Below, piece after piece: positions 45,117-50,944 of a stretch of DNA of 64,000 nt (position 1 is the stretch's first letter; each line of letters opens with the position of its first letter). A program made the position numbers and the translations under genes. This stretch comes from Roseivirga ehrenbergii. Its GTDB lineage: Bacteria; Bacteroidota; Bacteroidia; Cytophagales; Cyclobacteriaceae. Below the pieces are notes generated by a model, which did not search any database, was not told where the DNA came from, and saw nothing but the letters and a program-made list of their open reading frames with translations. The DNA lies in contig NZ_LQZQ01000045.1 in the NCBI RefSeq assembly GCF_001593005.1, positions 434,001 to 498,000 on the forward strand. Direction: 5' to 3'.

Positions 45117-45438
45117 AAATCTAAATATATGATTGTATAGGGTAACAGTATGAAAGTTAAATGAGGAGAAAGGTCCTGTATCATAATCTTAAATATACTC
45201 ACGTATATGATTGTGCTCAGGTTTGTGTTAGTTGAGGTTTGGAAAGATACAATCAATCCTTGATAAATCAAGAAGGTAAAGTTTAAAGATTTATTACAAC
45301 TTCAGTGTTTATCTCTTACAATAAAACGATTTGTGCTTTAATTCTATACTGCTAGAGGTTGGTCTAATTGATTGGTGACCAATTGAATAAAGTAAGGATT
45401 ATGAAGATACTCCCATATAAAAGAAATAAGATAAAAAA
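45117..45438. other. Intergenic stretch without a supported gene
   Basis: About 320 bases between the response regulator start and the rtcB terminator. TATATGATTGT occurs twice (45126-45136 and 45204-45214). A short inverted repeat ATATAC/GTATAT lies near 45193-45208. No gene or clear promoter is seen. Confidence 0.4.
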
Positions 45439-45463
45439 GAGAGGTGAAATTAATCCACCTCTC
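45432..45463 (-). terminator. Intrinsic terminator of the rtcB operon
   Basis: On the minus strand an 8-base perfect stem GAGAGGTG/CACCTCTC is followed by CTTTTTT. The upstream arm lies inside the last codons of rtcB, so termination is immediate. Confidence 0.85.
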
Positions 45464-46871
45464 CGAACTTCTCACCTCCACACATTCTTACCACTTTAGG
45501 GGTAAAAGTGCCAAGCACTTCTACTAAATCGGTCTGATGTGCCATTACCTCATGTATGTTTTTATATACTTGAGGTGCCTCATCCAAACCTGAGCCAATA
45601 AGTGTTACTCCTGCTTTTTTGATGTGCTTCTTCACTTCCTTTTTAGAAAGTGTTTGCTTGGCTCGGGTTCTAGAAAGTATCCTTCCAGCTCCATGCGAAG
45701 CTGAATTGATGGATTCCACATTACCTTTGCCTTTTACAATAAAGCCAGGGGAGGTCATCGAGCCGGGGATAATCCCCAAAACTCCTTCACCCGCAGGAGT
45801 AGCTCCTTTTCTGTGTACAATGACTTCATTTCCATCTAAATCTTGCTCTTTCCAGGCAAAGTTGTGGTGGTTTTCAATCATTGCCAGTGGCTTTTCTCCC
45901 AAAGCAGCGGTCAGTCTTTCATGAATTTGATGGTGACAAGCCGAAGCGTAATCACCAGCCAAATTCATGGCCAACCAGTATTCCTGCCCAGCTTCTGTGG
46001 CTAAATCCAACCATGCCAAATGTTTGGCTTCTCCCGGTAACTTGGTCATATCCATGGCCAGCTTGGTGTAATGTCTCGCGATATTCGCACCAAGTCCCCT
46101 CGATCCCGAGTGAGAAAGTACCGAAAGGTATTTGCCAATTGGCAGGTTAAATTCATTGTCACTATTCAGGATTTCAGCAATACCCAATTCCACAAAGTGA
46201 TTGCCACCTCCTGAAGAACCAATTTGCATCCAAGCCCTGTCTTTCAATGATTTCAGAATTTTGATTTCATCGAAAAGTGAGCTTTCAAGCACCGCATGAT
46301 CCTTCGGTCTCTTAAAAACCGCCTGACCAAATTTGGTGTTCTCCAAAAGCATGTTCTTCAAAGCTTCAATACTTTGATGGGCAAAAGCAGGAGGAATATC
46401 ATAAATAGTCATACACATTCTACATCCGATATCGACACCGACAGCATAAGGAATTACTGCATTGTTTGTGGCCAATACCCCACCAATCGGTAATCCATAG
46501 CCTTGGTGCGCATCGGGCATTAAGGCTCCATGCTTGGTTACTGGCAGCTTCATTGCAATCTCCATTTGGTTGATTGCGCCCTGCTCAATCCCCTCTGCAC
46601 CATATATACTATAAGGTATGCGCTTTTCTCTCAAAGCTAAAGTTTCATTGTGCTCTGTTTTAATGATTAAAGCCATTGCCACAGGGCCAAGTACTTCATG
46701 CTTTAAATAAAGACCAGGGTTTCCAACCACTTTCTTTAAAGCAGCTTTCTTATGTAGAATGGATTTTCCCTTGAAATGCTCTTCCAGTACCTTCATGGCT
46801 TCACCAATGGCTCTGCCTTCAGGAAACCCGAGCTTTCTCAAGTCTTTTCCAGTTAATTTTCTCGTTGCCAT
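45450..46871 (-). CDS. rtcB: RtcB-family RNA ligase
   Basis: About 473 aa from the second ATG (46871, MATRKLTGKD); an ATG three codons upstream is also possible. RtcB joins RNA ends with 2',3'-cyclic or 3'-phosphate to 5'-OH ends through a guanylylated His. Visible active-site blocks are MPDAHQGYGLPIGG, GVDIGCRMCM (Mn-binding Asp/Cys), GSSGGGNHFVELG, LSHSGSRGLG and NSASHGAGRILSR with the GMP-accepting His. It is last in a unit with the TPR and slipin genes and a tRNA-like array. No rtcA or rtcR is nearby. Its start region overlaps the end of the TPR gene. Confidence 0.92.
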   Translation of the reverse strand: MATRKLTGKDLRKLGFPEGRAIGEAMKVLEEHFKGKSILHKKAALKKVVGNPGLYLKHEVLGPVAMALIIKTEHNETLALREKRIPYSIYGAEGIEQGAINQMEIAMKLPVTKHGALMPDAHQGYGLPIGGVLATNNAVIPYAVGVDIGCRMCMTIYDIPPAFAHQSIEALKNMLLENTKFGQAVFKRPKDHAVLESSLFDEIKILKSLKDRAWMQIGSSGGGNHFVELGIAEILNSDNEFNLPIGKYLSVLSHSGSRGLGANIARHYTKLAMDMTKLPGEAKHLAWLDLATEAGQEYWLAMNLAGDYASACHHQIHERLTAALGEKPLAMIENHHNFAWKEQDLDGNEVIVHRKGATPAGEGVLGIIPGSMTSPGFIVKGKGNVESINSASHGAGRILSRTRAKQTLSKKEVKKHIKKAGVTLIGSGLDEAPQVYKNIHEVMAHQTDLVEVLGTFTPKVVRMCGGEKFGEVD

Positions 46872-47377
46872 AATTTCCAACGGTTTTTAATTCTCTTGTA
46901 CTTATTTCTCTTAATATGCTTTTTCAGTTCATCCACATTGTCATTGTCGAATGAAGCGAAAAGACCTTTTCGGTAGTGTTGAATGGCTTCTTTATAATTG
47001 CCAAGCGCCTCTTCAACCATCCCGATTTCTTCATGTACAAAGGCTTTATCAATGCTATCTACCTTGATTGCTTTCTTCATAAGCATCTTAATTCCTTCGT
47101 ATTTTTTATGATCCAGATAGAGCATAGCGAGTTCTTCATATACCTCTTTATAATCTGGTTTAAAACGTAAGGCCAATTGATAATGCCTTTCGGCCAATGC
47201 CAGATTAATATGATGATAATGATACATGTCACCAAGTTTAGCGTGTAATTTTGGGTAGCCTGGTTCTTCCATCAGCCCGTTTTCATACAGTCTTTTGGCT
47301 TCCTCATAGCGTCCATCATACATGGCATCTTCTGCCAACTGAATCACATTTTCGATGTATTCTTCGTAAATGTCCAT
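46853..47377 (-). CDS. Small TPR-repeat protein of the rtcB operon
   Basis: 174 aa consisting almost entirely of TPR helices (about residues 12-150, for example PDYKEVYEELAMLYLDHKKY and AFVHEEIGMVEEALGNYKEA). The tail is very basic (KKHIKRNKYKRIKNRWKLWQ) and could bind RNA. It lies between slipin and rtcB and overlaps the latter, so it is probably an adaptor linking membrane-bound slipin to the ligase. That link is inference. Confidence 0.8.
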   Translation of the reverse strand: MDIYEEYIENVIQLAEDAMYDGRYEEAKRLYENGLMEEPGYPKLHAKLGDMYHYHHINLALAERHYQLALRFKPDYKEVYEELAMLYLDHKKYEGIKMLMKKAIKVDSIDKAFVHEEIGMVEEALGNYKEAIQHYRKGLFASFDNDNVDELKKHIKRNKYKRIKNRWKLWQREN

Positions 47378-47391
47378 TGTGTTTAAATTCA

Positions 47392-47414
47392 GAGGGCAGG
47401 GGATACCTGCCCTC
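47392..47414. promoter_or_regulatory. Strong hairpin before the TPR gene
   Basis: GAGGGCAGG and CCTGCCCTC are perfectly complementary 9-base arms around a 5-base loop, ending 15 bases before the TPR start codon on the minus strand. It is GC-rich compared with its surroundings. It may be an mRNA processing or stabilising structure, or part of a repeat element. Confidence 0.5.
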
Positions 47415-47460
47415 AGGTTTTTAGTTTATTCATAATCAAATTCTAATAGCGAATCTATTT

Positions 47461-47565
47461 AAATCCACCCCCTTCAGCGGGGGGAAGCAGGCATTGTCGG
47501 TTTTACCGAAACGTTTTACTCACCTCTACCGCTGTCCTCCCTTGGGGGAGGTTGGAGGGGAATTT
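47461..47565. repeat. GC-rich intergenic repeat element between slipin and TPR genes
   Basis: About 105 bases with C/G-run hairpins at each end (CCCCCTTCAGCGGGGGG and CCTCCCTTGGGGGAGG) and roughly complementary outer edges. This kind of short element recurs in Bacteroidota genomes. Its insertion separates slipin from the TPR gene without obvious disruption. Confidence 0.5.
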
Positions 47566-47566
47566 T

Positions 47567-48667
47567 TCACCTAGAGAAAATCTCCTTCAATTGATCTACC
47601 ACTTGGTTACCACCAGAGAGTGAGATGTTGTTGATCTTATCCGCGATCTTTTCAACATATTCCATCTCTTTCAACTTGAACAACATTTCGTTGTCTTCCA
47701 TCAATTTAGCGGTGTTCAACAAGCTTCTGGTAGAAGCCGTTTCTTCCCTTCTGGTGATTACGTTGGCTTGCGCTTGCTTTTGAGCTATCAATACTTGGTT
47801 CATGATGTTTCTTAATTCTCCAGAAAGGATGATGTCCTTGACACCACAGTCTCTGATTTCAATTCCCAATGTATCGGCTTTGCTCTTCAAGAATCCTTTT
47901 ACATGTTCCGCAATAGCAGATTTTTGTTCTAGTAATTCATCAAGCGAGTAGTTACCAATGTATTCCCTTAAGGCCATCTGCATCAATACATAGAGCTGCT
48001 TATCAGCATCTTTGTTATCGATGAGGTATTTTTCAATATCAGCCACCTTGTATTGGCAGTTGAAGTTGATTCGCAAGCCAGCTTTGTCGCTGGTCAAGAT
48101 TTCCTGACCAGAAATTTCCATCTGCAATTGCCTCATGTCAGCTTTTAGCACAGTAACGGCAGTGGTGTTTTTCCAGAAGTAGTAGATGCCTTTGTCTAAT
48201 ACTTTGTCAAATTTTCCATCCACCATCAAAAGGCCTTTTTCATAAGATTCAACCACAAATACTCTGAGGTATTTTAGCACTTCGGTAGTGGTAAGTATCG
48301 CCCTGCTGATGTCCTGAGTGATATTGAAGTCACTCAAGTCAACTCTGGTAAACGTGTGTTCTACAAGCCCTTTCCAGAAAGCGTATTTTCCTACAGTTAG
48401 TACTGATTTAAATCTACCGTCAGCGTATTGAATTACAATCTCATTGTCCTTCACATCTACTACCATTAACATAGAAGCTAGCGTTGTGTCTTTCAAAAGA
48501 AGGTTCAAGTCTTTTGAAGTGTAGAATTGATCGGTAAGGCTATATACCATTACGGTTTCCGATAGCGATATCCAGGTTGTGCCCGCAGTGATCACTCTTC
48601 GGTAATCGCCATTTTTGAAAACCAAACCGACTTTTCCTTCGTTGATTCGTACTCTTTTCATTTTCAA
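47567..48667 (-). CDS. Slipin (SPFH/band-7 protein) of the rtcB operon
   Basis: 366 aa. An N-terminal repeat-like beta region with EGKVGLVFKNGDYRRVITAG and GKYAFWKG motifs is followed by an SPFH/band-7 domain (about residues 140-290). A coiled C-terminal segment contains IAQKQAQANVITRREE, typical of slipins. There is no strong transmembrane helix, so membrane contact may be peripheral. Alternative start at 48661. It lies directly after the tRNA-like array and upstream of TPR and rtcB, suggesting a membrane-associated RNA-repair complex. Confidence 0.85.
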   Translation of the reverse strand: MKMKRVRINEGKVGLVFKNGDYRRVITAGTTWISLSETVMVYSLTDQFYTSKDLNLLLKDTTLASMLMVVDVKDNEIVIQYADGRFKSVLTVGKYAFWKGLVEHTFTRVDLSDFNITQDISRAILTTTEVLKYLRVFVVESYEKGLLMVDGKFDKVLDKGIYYFWKNTTAVTVLKADMRQLQMEISGQEILTSDKAGLRINFNCQYKVADIEKYLIDNKDADKQLYVLMQMALREYIGNYSLDELLEQKSAIAEHVKGFLKSKADTLGIEIRDCGVKDIILSGELRNIMNQVLIAQKQAQANVITRREETASTRSLLNTAKLMEDNEMLFKLKEMEYVEKIADKINNISLSGGNQVVDQLKEIFSR

Positions 48668-48918
48668 ATTGGTTGTGAGGTTGCCCCCTGTTAAACATAT
48701 ATTTATCGCTATTGGCCAAATAGTTTTTTTCTTAAGAAAGGGGAGAGGGCAAACCTTTTGTCGAAAACGGGAGCTCCATTGAGTCTGAATTCACCAATGA
48801 GTTTTTGAAAGTTTGAATCATGAGTGGAGAAATTATCTTCTTTTCAATCATCTCTTTTTCAGAAAGTCATCAGTTGCATCAGGCGGTATCCTGTTGCCCT
48901 GGTCTTTTTCAAAATGCT

Positions 48919-48945
48919 CCATAGTTCTCCCTAAGGTTACTATGG
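48919..48945 (-). ncRNA. Hairpin downstream of tRNA-like module A
   Basis: Seven-base perfect arms CCATAGT/ACTATGG around a 13-base loop, within the transcript between the array and slipin. Its role is unknown. Confidence 0.4.
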
Positions 48946-48954
48946 GATTTGCCC

Positions 48955-48975
48955 GACACCCCCCTTTCAGGTGTC
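48955..48975 (-). ncRNA. Hairpin just after tRNA-like module A
   Basis: Six-base perfect arms GACACC/GGTGTC around a 9-base loop, 12 bases beyond the variable-arm-like hairpin of module A. It could mark the 3' end of that RNA. Confidence 0.4.
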
Positions 48976-48986
48976 ACCGTTTTTTA

Positions 48987-49078
48987 AGAAGTCGGTACTT
49001 CTGAAATCAATAGAACCAAAATCTATCGCGTTTAACCACTCCGCCATCCCTTATTCAGGGAGTGGGATTCGAACCCAC
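48987..49078 (-). ncRNA. tRNA-like module A, circularly permuted class II layout
   Basis: Read on the minus strand, the parts come in permuted order. T-arm: 49078-49062, stem GTGGG/CCCAC and loop TTCGAAT. Closed acceptor-like hairpin: 49061-49047, TCCCT/AGGGA. Two bases TG follow, at positions 8-9. D-arm: 49044-49028, GCG/CGC with a GG-containing loop. One G comes next, then an anticodon arm (49026-49010, ATAGA/TCTAT, loop TTTTGGT) and a variable-arm hairpin (49002-48987, AGAAGT/ACTTCT). Every junction length is that of a true tRNA. The body resembles tRNA-Leu, and the apparent anticodon UUG does not fit Leu. A standard linear tRNA reading fails because the acceptor halves would not pair. Confidence 0.65.
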
Positions 49079-49086
49079 ATGATTGA

Positions 49087-49154
49087 TGTGTCACTCTAAC
49101 CACTGAGTTATCTCGAATGTATCGAGAGAGGGATTCGAACCCTCGTCCTACACG
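49087..49154 (-). ncRNA. tRNA-like module B, circularly permuted / Y-RNA-like layout
   Basis: The minus-strand order is as follows. CGTGT (49154-49150) is followed by AGGAC (canonical variable-loop bases 44-48). The T-arm is at 49144-49128 (GAGGG/CCCTC, loop TTCGAAT). A perfect closed acceptor hairpin TCTCGA/TCGAGA lies at 49127-49111 with loop TACAT. TA follows (positions 8-9), then the D-arm (49108-49093, ACTC/GAGT, loop AGTGGTTA), G26 and ACACA. The outer ACAC pairs with GTGT as an anticodon stem. This is the topology of the tRNA-mimic module of bacterial Y RNAs and of permuted tRNA genes. CATAA just upstream resembles a Met anticodon-loop 3' part. Confidence 0.65.
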
Positions 49155-49157
49155 TTA

Positions 49158-49174
49158 TGGTGGGATTTTCACCA
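49158..49174 (-). ncRNA. Hairpin upstream of module B
   Basis: TGGTG/CACCA stem with a seven-base loop. It abuts the outer stem of module B and overlaps the CATAA segment, so the two structures may compete. Confidence 0.4.
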
Positions 49175-49188
49175 AATAATAAGCAGCA

Positions 49189-49211
49189 TACCGTGGCCTA
49201 CTGGCTCGGTA
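49189..49211 (-). ncRNA. Hairpin between tRNA-Tyr-like RNA and module B
   Basis: TACCG/CGGTA arms with an inner GCC/GGC stem and a four-base loop. No tRNA part is recognised here. Confidence 0.35.
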
Positions 49212-49235
49212 CTATGAGGGCTCTACTGAAACCCA

Positions 49236-49256
49236 CATCAGGTCTTATACCCGATG
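49236..49256 (-). ncRNA. Hairpin after the tRNA-Tyr-like RNA
   Basis: Eight-base arms CATCGGGT/ACCTGATG (one G-U) around a 5-base loop, ten bases past the 3' end of the tRNA-Tyr-like RNA. It may help 3' processing. Confidence 0.4.
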
Positions 49257-49266
49257 GTCATCCCGT

Positions 49267-49348
49267 GGAAATGGTAGGATTCGAACCTACTCAGCCTTAG
49301 GCATCGGTTTTACAGACCGATATAACTCTCCTGCTTTATCGCATTTCC
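49267..49348 (-). tRNA. tRNA-Tyr(GUA)-like RNA, non-canonical
   Basis: An 82-base cloverleaf in normal order. The acceptor GGAAATG/CATTTCC has 7 perfect pairs. The D-arm is ATAA/TTAT with a GG-containing 10-base loop. The anticodon arm is TCGGT/ACCGA with loop CTGTAAA (anticodon GTA). A 13-base class II variable arm (GCC/GGC) and a T-arm GTAGG/CCTAC with TTCGAAT follow. The discriminator is A and CCA is not encoded. Odd points are C instead of U at position 8, an all-A/U D-stem, and the location inside the rtcB operon. It may be a genuine extra tRNA-Tyr or a tRNA mimic. Confidence 0.7.
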
Positions 49349-49389
49349 ATATAGTTTATTCATTCATCGTTTAGGCGACCTATGGCCAT

Positions 49390-49423
49390 AAAAAAAGCCC
49401 GACCTTATACAGATCGGGCTTTT
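49390..49423 (-). terminator. Intrinsic terminator 2, between small frame 2 and the tRNA-like array
   Basis: On the minus strand a 12-base stem (AAAAGCCCGATC paired with GGTCGGGCTTTT, one G-U) has a 7-base loop and is followed by further T residues. It lies upstream of all the larger genes of the operon, so expression of rtcB needs read-through or a further promoter. Confidence 0.85.
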
Positions 49424-49445
49424 CAATGCCGTGAGTACGGTATTG

Positions 49446-49565
49446 TCAAGTCATAATTCCCCGATCTTTTTGCAAAAGATATATTTTACCTGCTCCAGAG
49501 TCATAATGACTCAGGTTATCCATAGGTGAGATCCACATGTTTAATCCTTCTATTTTCTTCTGCAT
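49446..49565 (-). CDS. Small frame 2 (39 aa), candidate peptide
   Basis: ATG at 49565 to TGA at 49446. Its middle contains ISPMDNLSHYDS, similar to AQPMEALFGFDS in the preceding small frame (shared pattern P-M-acidic-x-L-x-x-aromatic-D-S). It lies between two intrinsic terminators. The paralogy with frame 1 is the main reason to think it is translated. No function is known. Confidence 0.45.
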   Translation of the reverse strand: MQKKIEGLNMWISPMDNLSHYDSGAGKIYLLQKDRGIMT

Positions 49566-49583
49566 ATTCAAACCTTTTTAAAA

Positions 49584-49612
49584 CAAAAAACCCGAACCAA
49601 ATGGCCCGGGTT
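49584..49612 (-). terminator. Intrinsic terminator 1, after small frame 1
   Basis: On the minus strand a 10-base stem (AACCCGGGCC with GGTTCGGGTT, two G-U) and loop ATTT are followed by TTTT. It is 22 bases beyond the stop of small frame 1, giving a peptide-plus-terminator cassette. Confidence 0.85.
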
Positions 49613-49634
49613 TCGATATTTCGTTGTGTTGAAA

Positions 49635-49730
49635 TTAACGTATATTCCCAAGCCTAATTACATCACTATCAAAGCCAAATAATGCTTCCATTGGCTGTGC
49701 TATAAGGATATGTGAGTAATTGCTTTTCAT
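49635..49730 (-). CDS. Small frame 1 (31 aa), candidate leader peptide
   Basis: ATG at 49730 to TAA at 49635, starting about ten bases after the predicted transcription start, with an A-rich upstream region suited to Bacteroidota translation. The central AQPMEALFGFDS resembles ISPMDNLSHYDS of frame 2. No run of a single regulatory codon is seen, so classical attenuation by starvation for one amino acid is not obvious. Confidence 0.5.
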   Translation of the reverse strand: MKSNYSHILIAQPMEALFGFDSDVIRLGNIR

Positions 49731-49746
49731 TTTCTTTTCTGTGCTG

Positions 49747-49779
49747 CAAATGTACTGAAATTGATTTCTGATATCCAAA
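49747..49779 (-). promoter_or_regulatory. Promoter of the tRNA-like array/rtcB region
   Basis: On the minus strand TTTG (49779-49776) and TACATTTG (49754-49747, exact TAnnTTTG) are 21 bases apart, a good Bacteroidota promoter. Transcription should begin near 49740, just before small frame 1. Confidence 0.65.
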
Positions 49780-49966
49780 TAAAATTTTTTGTTCATTTGT
49801 TTTTACGGCTTAAATTAATTATTTAAGTGTCTGTATATCAGCACTATGTCCTTAAAATAAAAAATTGAAAATTGACTTGGGATATGTCCGCTTTCATAAA
49901 TTAAATTGAATAAACGGTTTTACGGGTTTACGGAATGTTCATTCAATTTTTCGCCTGAACTCTTTA

Positions 49967-50944
49967 TTACTTGGTCATATCTAATAGCACTTTTCCGCTT
50001 CTTCCTGGAGCTTCCATATGCTCAATGGCTTTGGCGATTTCATCAATACCATAATAAGCCTCAACATCTGCTTTTAATTCTTGCTTGGTTAGCATAGTCA
50101 ATACTTCAGGAATAATGGTGGAACGCTGTTCTCTGGTCAAGCTGGCCATCCATGTACTTAGCCAAAAGCCTTTGATGGTCAAGTTTTTGAAAATCAAAAG
50201 TCCTGAATTCAGCGGAATAGGCTGAAGGCTCAATAGTCCGTAAACAAACATTTTTCCATTGGTTTGCATGGCATTCAATACCTTGTCGCCAAGCTCTCCA
50301 CCCACGGCATCAAAAGCGGCTTTCACCATTACACCCTCGGTTGCAGCTTTTACAGTTTTATAGATGTTTTCTGTTTTTTCATTGATAATGGCTTTAGCTC
50401 CCAAATCGAGTAAAGCTTGCTTTTGCTCATCGCTGCGTACTGTGCCTACTACATTGATTCCACGTTGCGAAGCCAATTGAATGACAAATTTGCTGAAAGC
50501 TGAGTTGGCCGCTGTTAACATTAGCCAATCTCCTGCTTGTAAATCGGCTTCCATGAGCATGCCATAAGCGGTAAATGGATTTACAAAGGCTTGACAAGCT
50601 ACATCATCGCTCATGGTCTGTGGTTTTGGAATGGCAGTTTTGGCTGGGATACAAACATACTCTGCCCAAACACCCGAACCTGTGAAAATCACGCCCGTAC
50701 CCAATGGCATTTCTACGCCTGCACCACAAGCATCTACCGTTCCGGTACCTTCAAAACCGCCAATTTGAGGTAATTCTGGTCTGATGCCATACTTGCCCTG
50801 AATAAACATAATATCGGCAGGAATAATATTCGCCTTGGTAACTTTTACTCGAATCTCGCCTTCGGCTGGTTCCGGTTTTGGGAGTTGAACGACTTTAAGT
50901 ACTTCGGTGGGTAGGCCTAGGGTGGTAAATTGGACTGCTTTCAT
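49967..50944 (-). CDS. Zinc-independent MDR/quinone-reductase-like oxidoreductase
   Basis: About 325 aa from the ATG at 50944 (MKAVQFTTLGLPTEV). An in-frame ATG at 51019 lies inside a repeat-derived region and is unlikely. The N-terminal GroES-like part has GGFEGTGTVDACG, and the Rossmann part has GDWLMLTAANSAFSKFVIQLA, in which the usual glycine-rich loop is altered to TAANSA as in MECR-type 2-enoyl reductases. It is divergent from an SDR gene, with which it may share regulation. Confidence 0.85.
   Translation of the reverse strand: MKAVQFTTLGLPTEVLKVVQLPKPEPAEGEIRVKVTKANIIPADIMFIQGKYGIRPELPQIGGFEGTGTVDACGAGVEMPLGTGVIFTGSGVWAEYVCIPAKTAIPKPQTMSDDVACQAFVNPFTAYGMLMEADLQAGDWLMLTAANSAFSKFVIQLASQRGINVVGTVRSDEQKQALLDLGAKAIINEKTENIYKTVKAATEGVMVKAAFDAVGGELGDKVLNAMQTNGKMFVYGLLSLQPIPLNSGLLIFKNLTIKGFWLSTWMASLTREQRSTIIPEVLTMLTKQELKADVEAYYGIDEIAKAIEHMEAPGRSGKVLLDMTK

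Follow-up and report, generated by a model that had tools for sequence, protein, structure and literature searches.

Tandem YrlA-type tRNA mimics in permuted order in a probable leader RNA upstream of slipin and RtcB genes of Roseivirga ehrenbergii

The stretch of Roseivirga ehrenbergii DNA analysed here, hereafter the window, comprises 64,000 nucleotides (RefSeq assembly GCF_001593005.1, contig NZ_LQZQ01000045.1, positions 434,001 to 498,000; window positions are used throughout) and contains, upstream of a slipin gene, two elements, modules B and C, in which the parts of a tRNA follow each other in circularly permuted order. These modules are probably tandem Ro60-independent mimics of the YrlA type, located in the leader RNA of a dispensable unit for tRNA supply and repair, where they would dock or decoy a tRNA-binding protein. 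Their fold and its kinship with YrlA, the covariation, the conservation, the gene context and the boundaries of the unit were determined by computation. To our knowledge, what the tRNA mimic of YrlA does and which RNAs are naturally acted on in bacteria by RtcB, the RNA ligase encoded in the same unit, are long-standing open questions.

Module B is located on the minus strand and is read from 49154 to 49087 (68 nt). A sequence-only reading had placed here a T-arm, an acceptor hairpin and a D-arm in permuted order; the location was right, but plus-strand coordinates had been given for a minus-strand module. All elements which it had named are present, including the TA spacer, the acceptor stem on its loop of five bases, the outer GTGT/ACAC pairs and the variable loop. 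In reading order, the module is composed of the strand CGTGT (49154-49150), the variable loop AGGAC (49149-49145), the T-arm GAGGG-TTCGAAT-CCCTC (49144-49128), the closed acceptor hairpin TCTCGA-TACAT-TCGAGA with 6 bp and a 5-nt loop (49127-49111), the spacer TA (49110-49109), the D-arm ACTC-AGTGGTTA-GAGT (49108-49093), a single G and the strand ACACA (49091-49087). The first and the last strand form an anticodon-stem-like helix which closes the whole; an anticodon loop is missing, its position being the point of permutation. The assignment is based on the sequence, on covariation in homologs and on a covariance model, designated R1, which was built only from homologous modules of slipin loci. 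With module B of the window in its training set and with rough E-values, R1 gives its top score in the 4.24-Mb genome, 73.9 bits, at exactly 49087-49154, followed by module C (34.6 bits) and an overlap with a tRNA gene (33.3 bits). On its own, R1 is unspecific, as junctions of tandem identical tRNAs reach 50-60 bits, and a match length below about 76 nt is needed in addition.

Slipin orthologs from genomes of the family and 80 named Bacteroidota loci, together with the window, formed a homolog set of 101 loci; a few loci are present in both collections, and some loci of the set are metagenome bins with doubtful names. With a strict structural scanner, one or more modules were detected in 92 of the 101 loci, and two T-arms 48-100 nt apart occur in 89. 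The sequences of the acceptor hairpins are nearly all different, while their pairing is kept. Because this scanner requires pairing, the unbiased test is one in which segments were bounded by the sequence motifs of the T-loop and the D-loop alone: 124 of 145 such T-to-D segments fold into an end-to-end closed structure, compared to 6.0% of shuffles. Together with the genome-wide best score of module B, this places the pattern beyond chance. In an alignment of 33 modules, for which fully paired acceptors were a selection criterion, 92.9% of the cells are paired compared to 67.7% after shuffling, and the covariation score is 0.767 compared to 0.253 (0 of 500 shuffles). In the same alignment, each of the five pairs of the anticodon-stem-like helix, on which no selection was made, has undergone double changes; over 45 distinct loci, this helix is paired in 72% of cases (51% when shuffled). 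Homologs with uncompensated breaks in the acceptor or the T-stem had been named beforehand as the observation that would speak against the fold; the outcome favours the structure, with compensated stems and conserved spacing.

A conventional reading of the same DNA was considered as well. Under the Rfam tRNA model, whose cutoff is 29 bits, a linear tRNA at 49117-49054, which combines the D-arm of module B with the T-arm of module C, scores 31.7 bits, and decayed or linear tRNA genes might seem permuted by chance or through tandem duplication; tandem identical tRNAs elsewhere indeed yield R1 matches of 80-120 nt. Despite this score, the acceptor of the linear reading is paired in only 47.8% of cases across homologs, hardly differing from shuffled sequences (45.4%), in agreement with the earlier statement that a linear reading fails on acceptor pairing, whereas the permuted pairings reach 97%, a value obtained from modules picked by the pairing-requiring scanner. 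The short hairpin loops, the compensated stems and the phylum-wide spacing point in the same direction, so that this explanation, extremely improbable in our estimate, is refuted by the comparative data.

Module C (49010-49078, minus strand; sequence and R1, 34.6 bits) is a second permuted mimic; the sequence-only reading had recognized neither that it forms one RNA with module B nor the slipin-RtcB context. It consists of the T-arm GTGGG-TTCGAAT-CCCAC (49078-49062), the closed acceptor hairpin TCCCT-GAATA-AGGGA with a 5-nt loop (49061-49047), a TG spacer, the D-arm GCG-GAGTGGTTAAA-CGC (49044-49028) and a complete anticodon arm ATAGA-TTTTGGT-TCTAT with the loop TTTTGGT (49026-49010). Here, the point of permutation is the variable loop and the anticodon arm is intact; among homologs, 37 of 41 parsed cases have an anticodon loop of 7 nt with U33.

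Whether such modules are YrlA-like mimics or permuted tRNA genes had been left open. As of 2014, circularly permuted tRNA genes were described for algae and one archaeon (Thermofilum), in which the 3' half precedes the 5' half as it does here (PMC3978253). Transcripts of modules B and C might accordingly be joined by a ligase, possibly RtcB, to give functional tRNAs; the topology fits that of permuted pre-tRNAs, an RNA ligase gene is present within the unit, and the acceptor loops of some relatives comprise 16-22 nt. We consider this very improbable. Module B has no anticodon loop and the anticodon identity of module C is not conserved. Apart from some exceptions, the acceptor loops of the homologs comprise 3-8 nt (5 nt in the window) and, unlike those of permuted tRNA genes, provide no intervening sequence that RNase P and tRNase Z could process and remove. 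The acceptor stems have 5-8 bp, and a CCA-like start of the loop was found in 6 of 125 cases. The known cases moreover require a bulge-helix-bulge (BHB) motif and a splicing endonuclease, both known from archaea and eukaryotes (PMC3978253). Long module B acceptor loops (14-22 nt, AT-rich, with a CNA-like start) occur in L058, L080, L082, L084, L100, L105, L108, L110, L123, L127 and L128 of the homologous loci and could still be processed.

The YrlA-type fold is favoured instead. Module B has the T-arm, the closed acceptor hairpin and the D-arm that characterize the YrlA effector module, and the Rfam YrlA model (RF02553) aligns to it over its full length with 32.8 bits (E 4.4e-5), below the cutoff of 69 bits; in relatives, this model reaches up to 44.5 bits, mostly over model positions 23-86. 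In the opposite direction, R1 also detects curated YrlA RNAs: locus L152 holds two Rfam YrlA above cutoff as well as a confirmed TROVE (Ro60) gene, and in L153-L157, L159 and L162 the R1 hits adjoin a Pfam-confirmed Ro60 gene. Since a model derived exclusively from slipin modules recognizes YrlA beside Ro60, the module fold can be equated with that of the YrlA effector module. The common features comprise the T-arm, the closed acceptor hairpin, the two intervening nucleotides, the D-arm and the closing helix as well as the link to RtcB. Judged from its sequence, module B is a tRNA mimic of the YrlA-type fold; strictly speaking, it is no Y RNA, because both a Ro60 gene and a Ro60-binding flank are absent. 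For a genuine Y RNA with Ro60 as its partner, one could invoke the sub-threshold Rfam match and the cross-detection of Y RNAs adjoining Ro60, but a TROVE gene was not found in the R. ehrenbergii genome and is present in only 6 of 35 slipin-positive genomes; a Ro60-type flank was found in 0 of 101 slipin leaders, and the motif GNCGAAN0-1G in 3 of 91, each time inside T-arm sequence. This possibility therefore has very little to recommend it. Bacterial Y RNAs such as YrlA are stand-alone RNAs of 90-150 nt (PMC8394870). In contrast to YrlA, the modules described here occur in tandem, one of them with a full anticodon arm, are embedded in what is probably a longer conserved RNA without a Ro60-type basal stem, and are joined to slipin and tRNA arrays. 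Classical Ro60-Y RNA loci were observed in other Bacteroidota (L152-L157, L159, L161-L164), many of them beside RtcB; in several of them two or more Y RNAs are present, with the conserved flank CGTAGA..AGTCTTACTTCG...TTGTTACCTC.

Modules B and C probably lie within one structured noncoding leader RNA with a length of about 550 nt, a proposal which belongs to the joint explanation given above and draws on sequence conservation and predicted folding. Its upstream domain (49155-49262, minus strand), recognized by conservation and covariation, contains a hairpin and the ATGCTGCTT block, and the approximately 100 nt 5' of module B are kept across the phylum. The hairpin, ATG-T-GGG/CCC-T-CAT at 49238-49214, has a TTTC loop (TTTCTGTAT-type in homologs), and its inner 3 bp are paired in 96% of cases compared to 75.5% after shuffling, with GTG/CAC, GAG/CTC, GGG/CCC and GCG/CGC as variants. 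The conserved downstream domain (48700-49009, minus strand, 3' limit approximate) comprises the blocks GAAGTnnnnACTTCTTAAAAAA, GGATACCG and TCCCGTTTT...CTTTCTT, the last of which stops short of slipin. The predicted fold of 48984-49262 is more stable than every shuffle (z -3.2). Except for tRNA, Rfam 15 gave no above-threshold match to the leader, the YrlA match being sub-threshold. The design of the leader is conserved throughout the phylum and apparently uncatalogued.

On the minus strand, the leader is preceded by a tRNA(Tyr)-like gene and followed by the genes for slipin, a TPR protein and RtcB, so that the succession of tRNA-like RNA, slipin and rtcB which defines a slipin-RtcB RNA repair unit is found. 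The slipin gene (47567-48667) encodes an SPFH/Band 7 protein (PF01145, 117.5 bits) and is followed by the TPR protein gene (46853-47377) and the RtcB RNA ligase gene (45450-46880; PF01139, 267 bits). The tRNA-Tyr(GTA)-like gene (49266-49348; Rfam RF00005, 46.9 bits) has a deviant D-arm and was missed by ARAGORN, which detected no tRNA in the window; it may be a specialised or a decaying tRNA. In a genome of the same genus which lacks slipin (G118), just 180 nt separate the counterparts of window positions 49989 and 45297. The whole 4.7-kb region from 45298 to 49988 is absent there as one block, from which it follows that tRNA, leader RNA, slipin, TPR and RtcB form a unit whose parts occur together or not at all.

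Between 49778 and 49390, on the minus strand and 5' of the tRNA gene, a promoter-like site is followed by two short conserved open reading frames (ORFs), each with a strong terminator-like hairpin. The putative promoter, of the Bacteroidota type (TTG-N21-TACATTTG, 49747-49778), was recognized by sequence and is also present in L055 and L035. The first candidate leader peptide (MKSNYSHILIAQPMEALFGFDSDVIRLGNIR, 49635-49730) is conserved in L055, L057 and L035 and weaker in L056 and L058, and precedes the first hairpin (49585-49612); the second (MQKKIEGLNMWISPMDNLSHYDSGAGKIYLLQKDRGIMT, 49446-49565) is 92% identical in L055 and about 43% identical in L035 and precedes the second hairpin (49390-49422), both hairpins being of the intrinsic terminator type. 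This order, in which a short conserved ORF precedes each terminator-like hairpin, suggests a candidate double attenuator with ribosome-linked attenuation, by which the unit would be induced when translation falters. Such terminator-like hairpins are again found in pairs, with a spacing of about 170-220 nt, upstream of many homologous arrays, in about one fifth of the loci. In addition, arrays with a maximum of 16 tRNA genes are often located upstream of the permuted modules, among them large ones (11-16 tRNAs in 3.5 kb) 5' of modules in Flavobacteriia (L127, L110, L105, L085, L116), and rtcB follows slipin in most loci with enough room to see it.

Comparable combinations are known from other bacteria. 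One translation-stress repressor of Anabaena controls a slipin gene as well as rtcB and a tRNA array, all of which become derepressed by translation inhibitors (PMC10272220). This trn operon/TrcR regulon likewise joins spare tRNAs to rtcB and slipin under translation stress, but its genes are scattered, whereas those described here are contiguous and come with candidate attenuators and a structured RNA that mimics tRNA. The Salmonella operon rsr-yrlBA-rtcBA, which is switched on by damaged tRNAs (PMC7790460), also combines a noncoding tRNA mimic with RtcB, and tRNA damage is its likely signal; unlike this operon, the R. ehrenbergii genome has no Rsr/Ro60 and the unit contains slipin, TPR and tRNA genes instead, and neither RtcA nor RtcR was found among the genes read beside the locus in the window. 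The tRNA-like domain of YrlA is a binding site for PNPase and a substrate of the modifying enzymes DusA and TruB (PMC8394870), and YrlA has been proposed as a competitive inhibitor of anticodon nuclease (PMC7790460). As the putative attenuation matches the induction observed in Anabaena and Salmonella and the YrlA fold binds PNPase, we favour docking or decoying within a unit composed of a candidate attenuator pair, one or more tRNA genes, leader RNA, slipin, TPR protein and RtcB. Each mimic would retain the tRNA elbow, formed by T-loop, D-loop and acceptor/T stack, and should escape charging and trimming because the acceptor end is sealed into a hairpin. Module B, opened at the anticodon loop, would hang on the upstream domain like the YrlA effector module, and module C, opened at the variable loop, would display its anticodon arm. 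If transcribed with the leader and acting in trans, the RNA might dock or decoy a tRNA-cleaving nuclease, PNPase or RtcB under translation stress, alongside spare tRNAs and a ligase mending cut tRNAs.

Several observations weigh against this proposal. The anticodon of module C varies (UUU 11, GUU 10, UAG 7 and others 13, the latter being 11 further triplets; n=41), and this variation speaks against a decoy dedicated to a single nuclease. In nearly half of the loci, ARAGORN detected no tRNA in the vicinity, and in some loci rtcB was not found inside the retrieved DNA. Finally, the leader may be the 5' UTR of slipin rather than a separate RNA. This leads to the main rival, according to which the mimics are a cis-acting sensor within the 5' UTR that is bound or cut by RtcB, a tRNA nuclease or a tRNA-modifying enzyme and sets the expression of slipin and rtcB. 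The mRNA of thrS, which autoregulates through tRNA mimicry, offers a parallel. Slipin follows the RNA immediately downstream and in the same orientation, sequence inspection revealed no strong terminator between module C and slipin, and the leader is better conserved than the slipin gene. On the other hand, a conserved RNA with two full mimics far exceeds the size of a simple operator, its final conserved block ends before slipin, and its close fold relative YrlA acts in trans; cis regulation is therefore rather unlikely, although it deserves far more weight than the other alternatives.

Similar arrangements are found beyond the Bacteroidota. tRNA-like elements are also located 5' of related slipins in Subdoligranulum, E. 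coli, Burkholderia and Photobacterium, and rtcB lies downstream of slipin in all of these except E. coli, where RlaP takes its place. RlaP represents an RNA-repair nucleotidyltransferase family. The elements of Subdoligranulum and E. coli are of the closed-hairpin type. The E. coli slipin-RlaP locus (L174, L177, L178) lies between yjbD and lysC in 1624 of 5426 complete genomes and shows a compensatory T:A to C:G change in the T-stem between strains; like the R. ehrenbergii unit it has a T-arm and a closed hairpin upstream, but it lacks a clear D-arm and a tandem module. In this locus as well as in the rtc locus of Pseudomonas aeruginosa, which contains an SPFH gene (PMC13086221), a slipin-type gene adjoins RNA repair enzymes. 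Degenerate, apparently linear tRNA-like elements lie directly 5' of slipin-rtcB in Photobacterium and Burkholderia (L176, 4174-4315; L175, 3974-4043), and as these look linear, permutation does not seem essential to the theme, a further point against the proposal made here. It is conceivable, but put forward tentatively, that long Ro60-independent RNAs with tandem permuted mimics are a standard part of slipin-linked repair units in Bacteroidota, that the leaders preceding slipin in other phyla are simpler tRNA-like forms, and that the long RNAs serve as decoys or sensors coupling tRNA cleavage or translation stress to spare tRNAs and repair by RtcB or RlaP.

Because the mimic is doubled here and occurs without Ro60 in a dispensable unit together with spare tRNAs and RtcB, its role becomes testable apart from Ro60. 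The leader would also constitute a new annotatable RNA family, as it is distributed phylum-wide, covaries strongly and is absent from Rfam 15 apart from the YrlA and tRNA matches mentioned above. It may connect RNA repair to tRNA damage and to spare tRNAs, and slipins, membrane proteins whose purpose is unclear, gain a concrete RNA-repair context. In the open-licence papers covered, searches combining RtcB with slipin and tRNA-like elements, or with Band-7, gave no match. PADLOC assigned no anti-phage defence model to the proteins of the operon, and a phage origin of slipin was rejected, as it matched none of 50,697 phage records.

Among the loci found, Roseivirga seohaensis (L055) is the nearest named relative; its RtcB is 96% identical and its module B identical. 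The region comprising tRNA and leader (48690-49378) shares 94.9% identity with this species, compared to 75.7% at the nucleotide level for the slipin gene. With 89-95% identity for the neighbours of slipin between the two loci, this suggests that slipin was replaced or has evolved fast.
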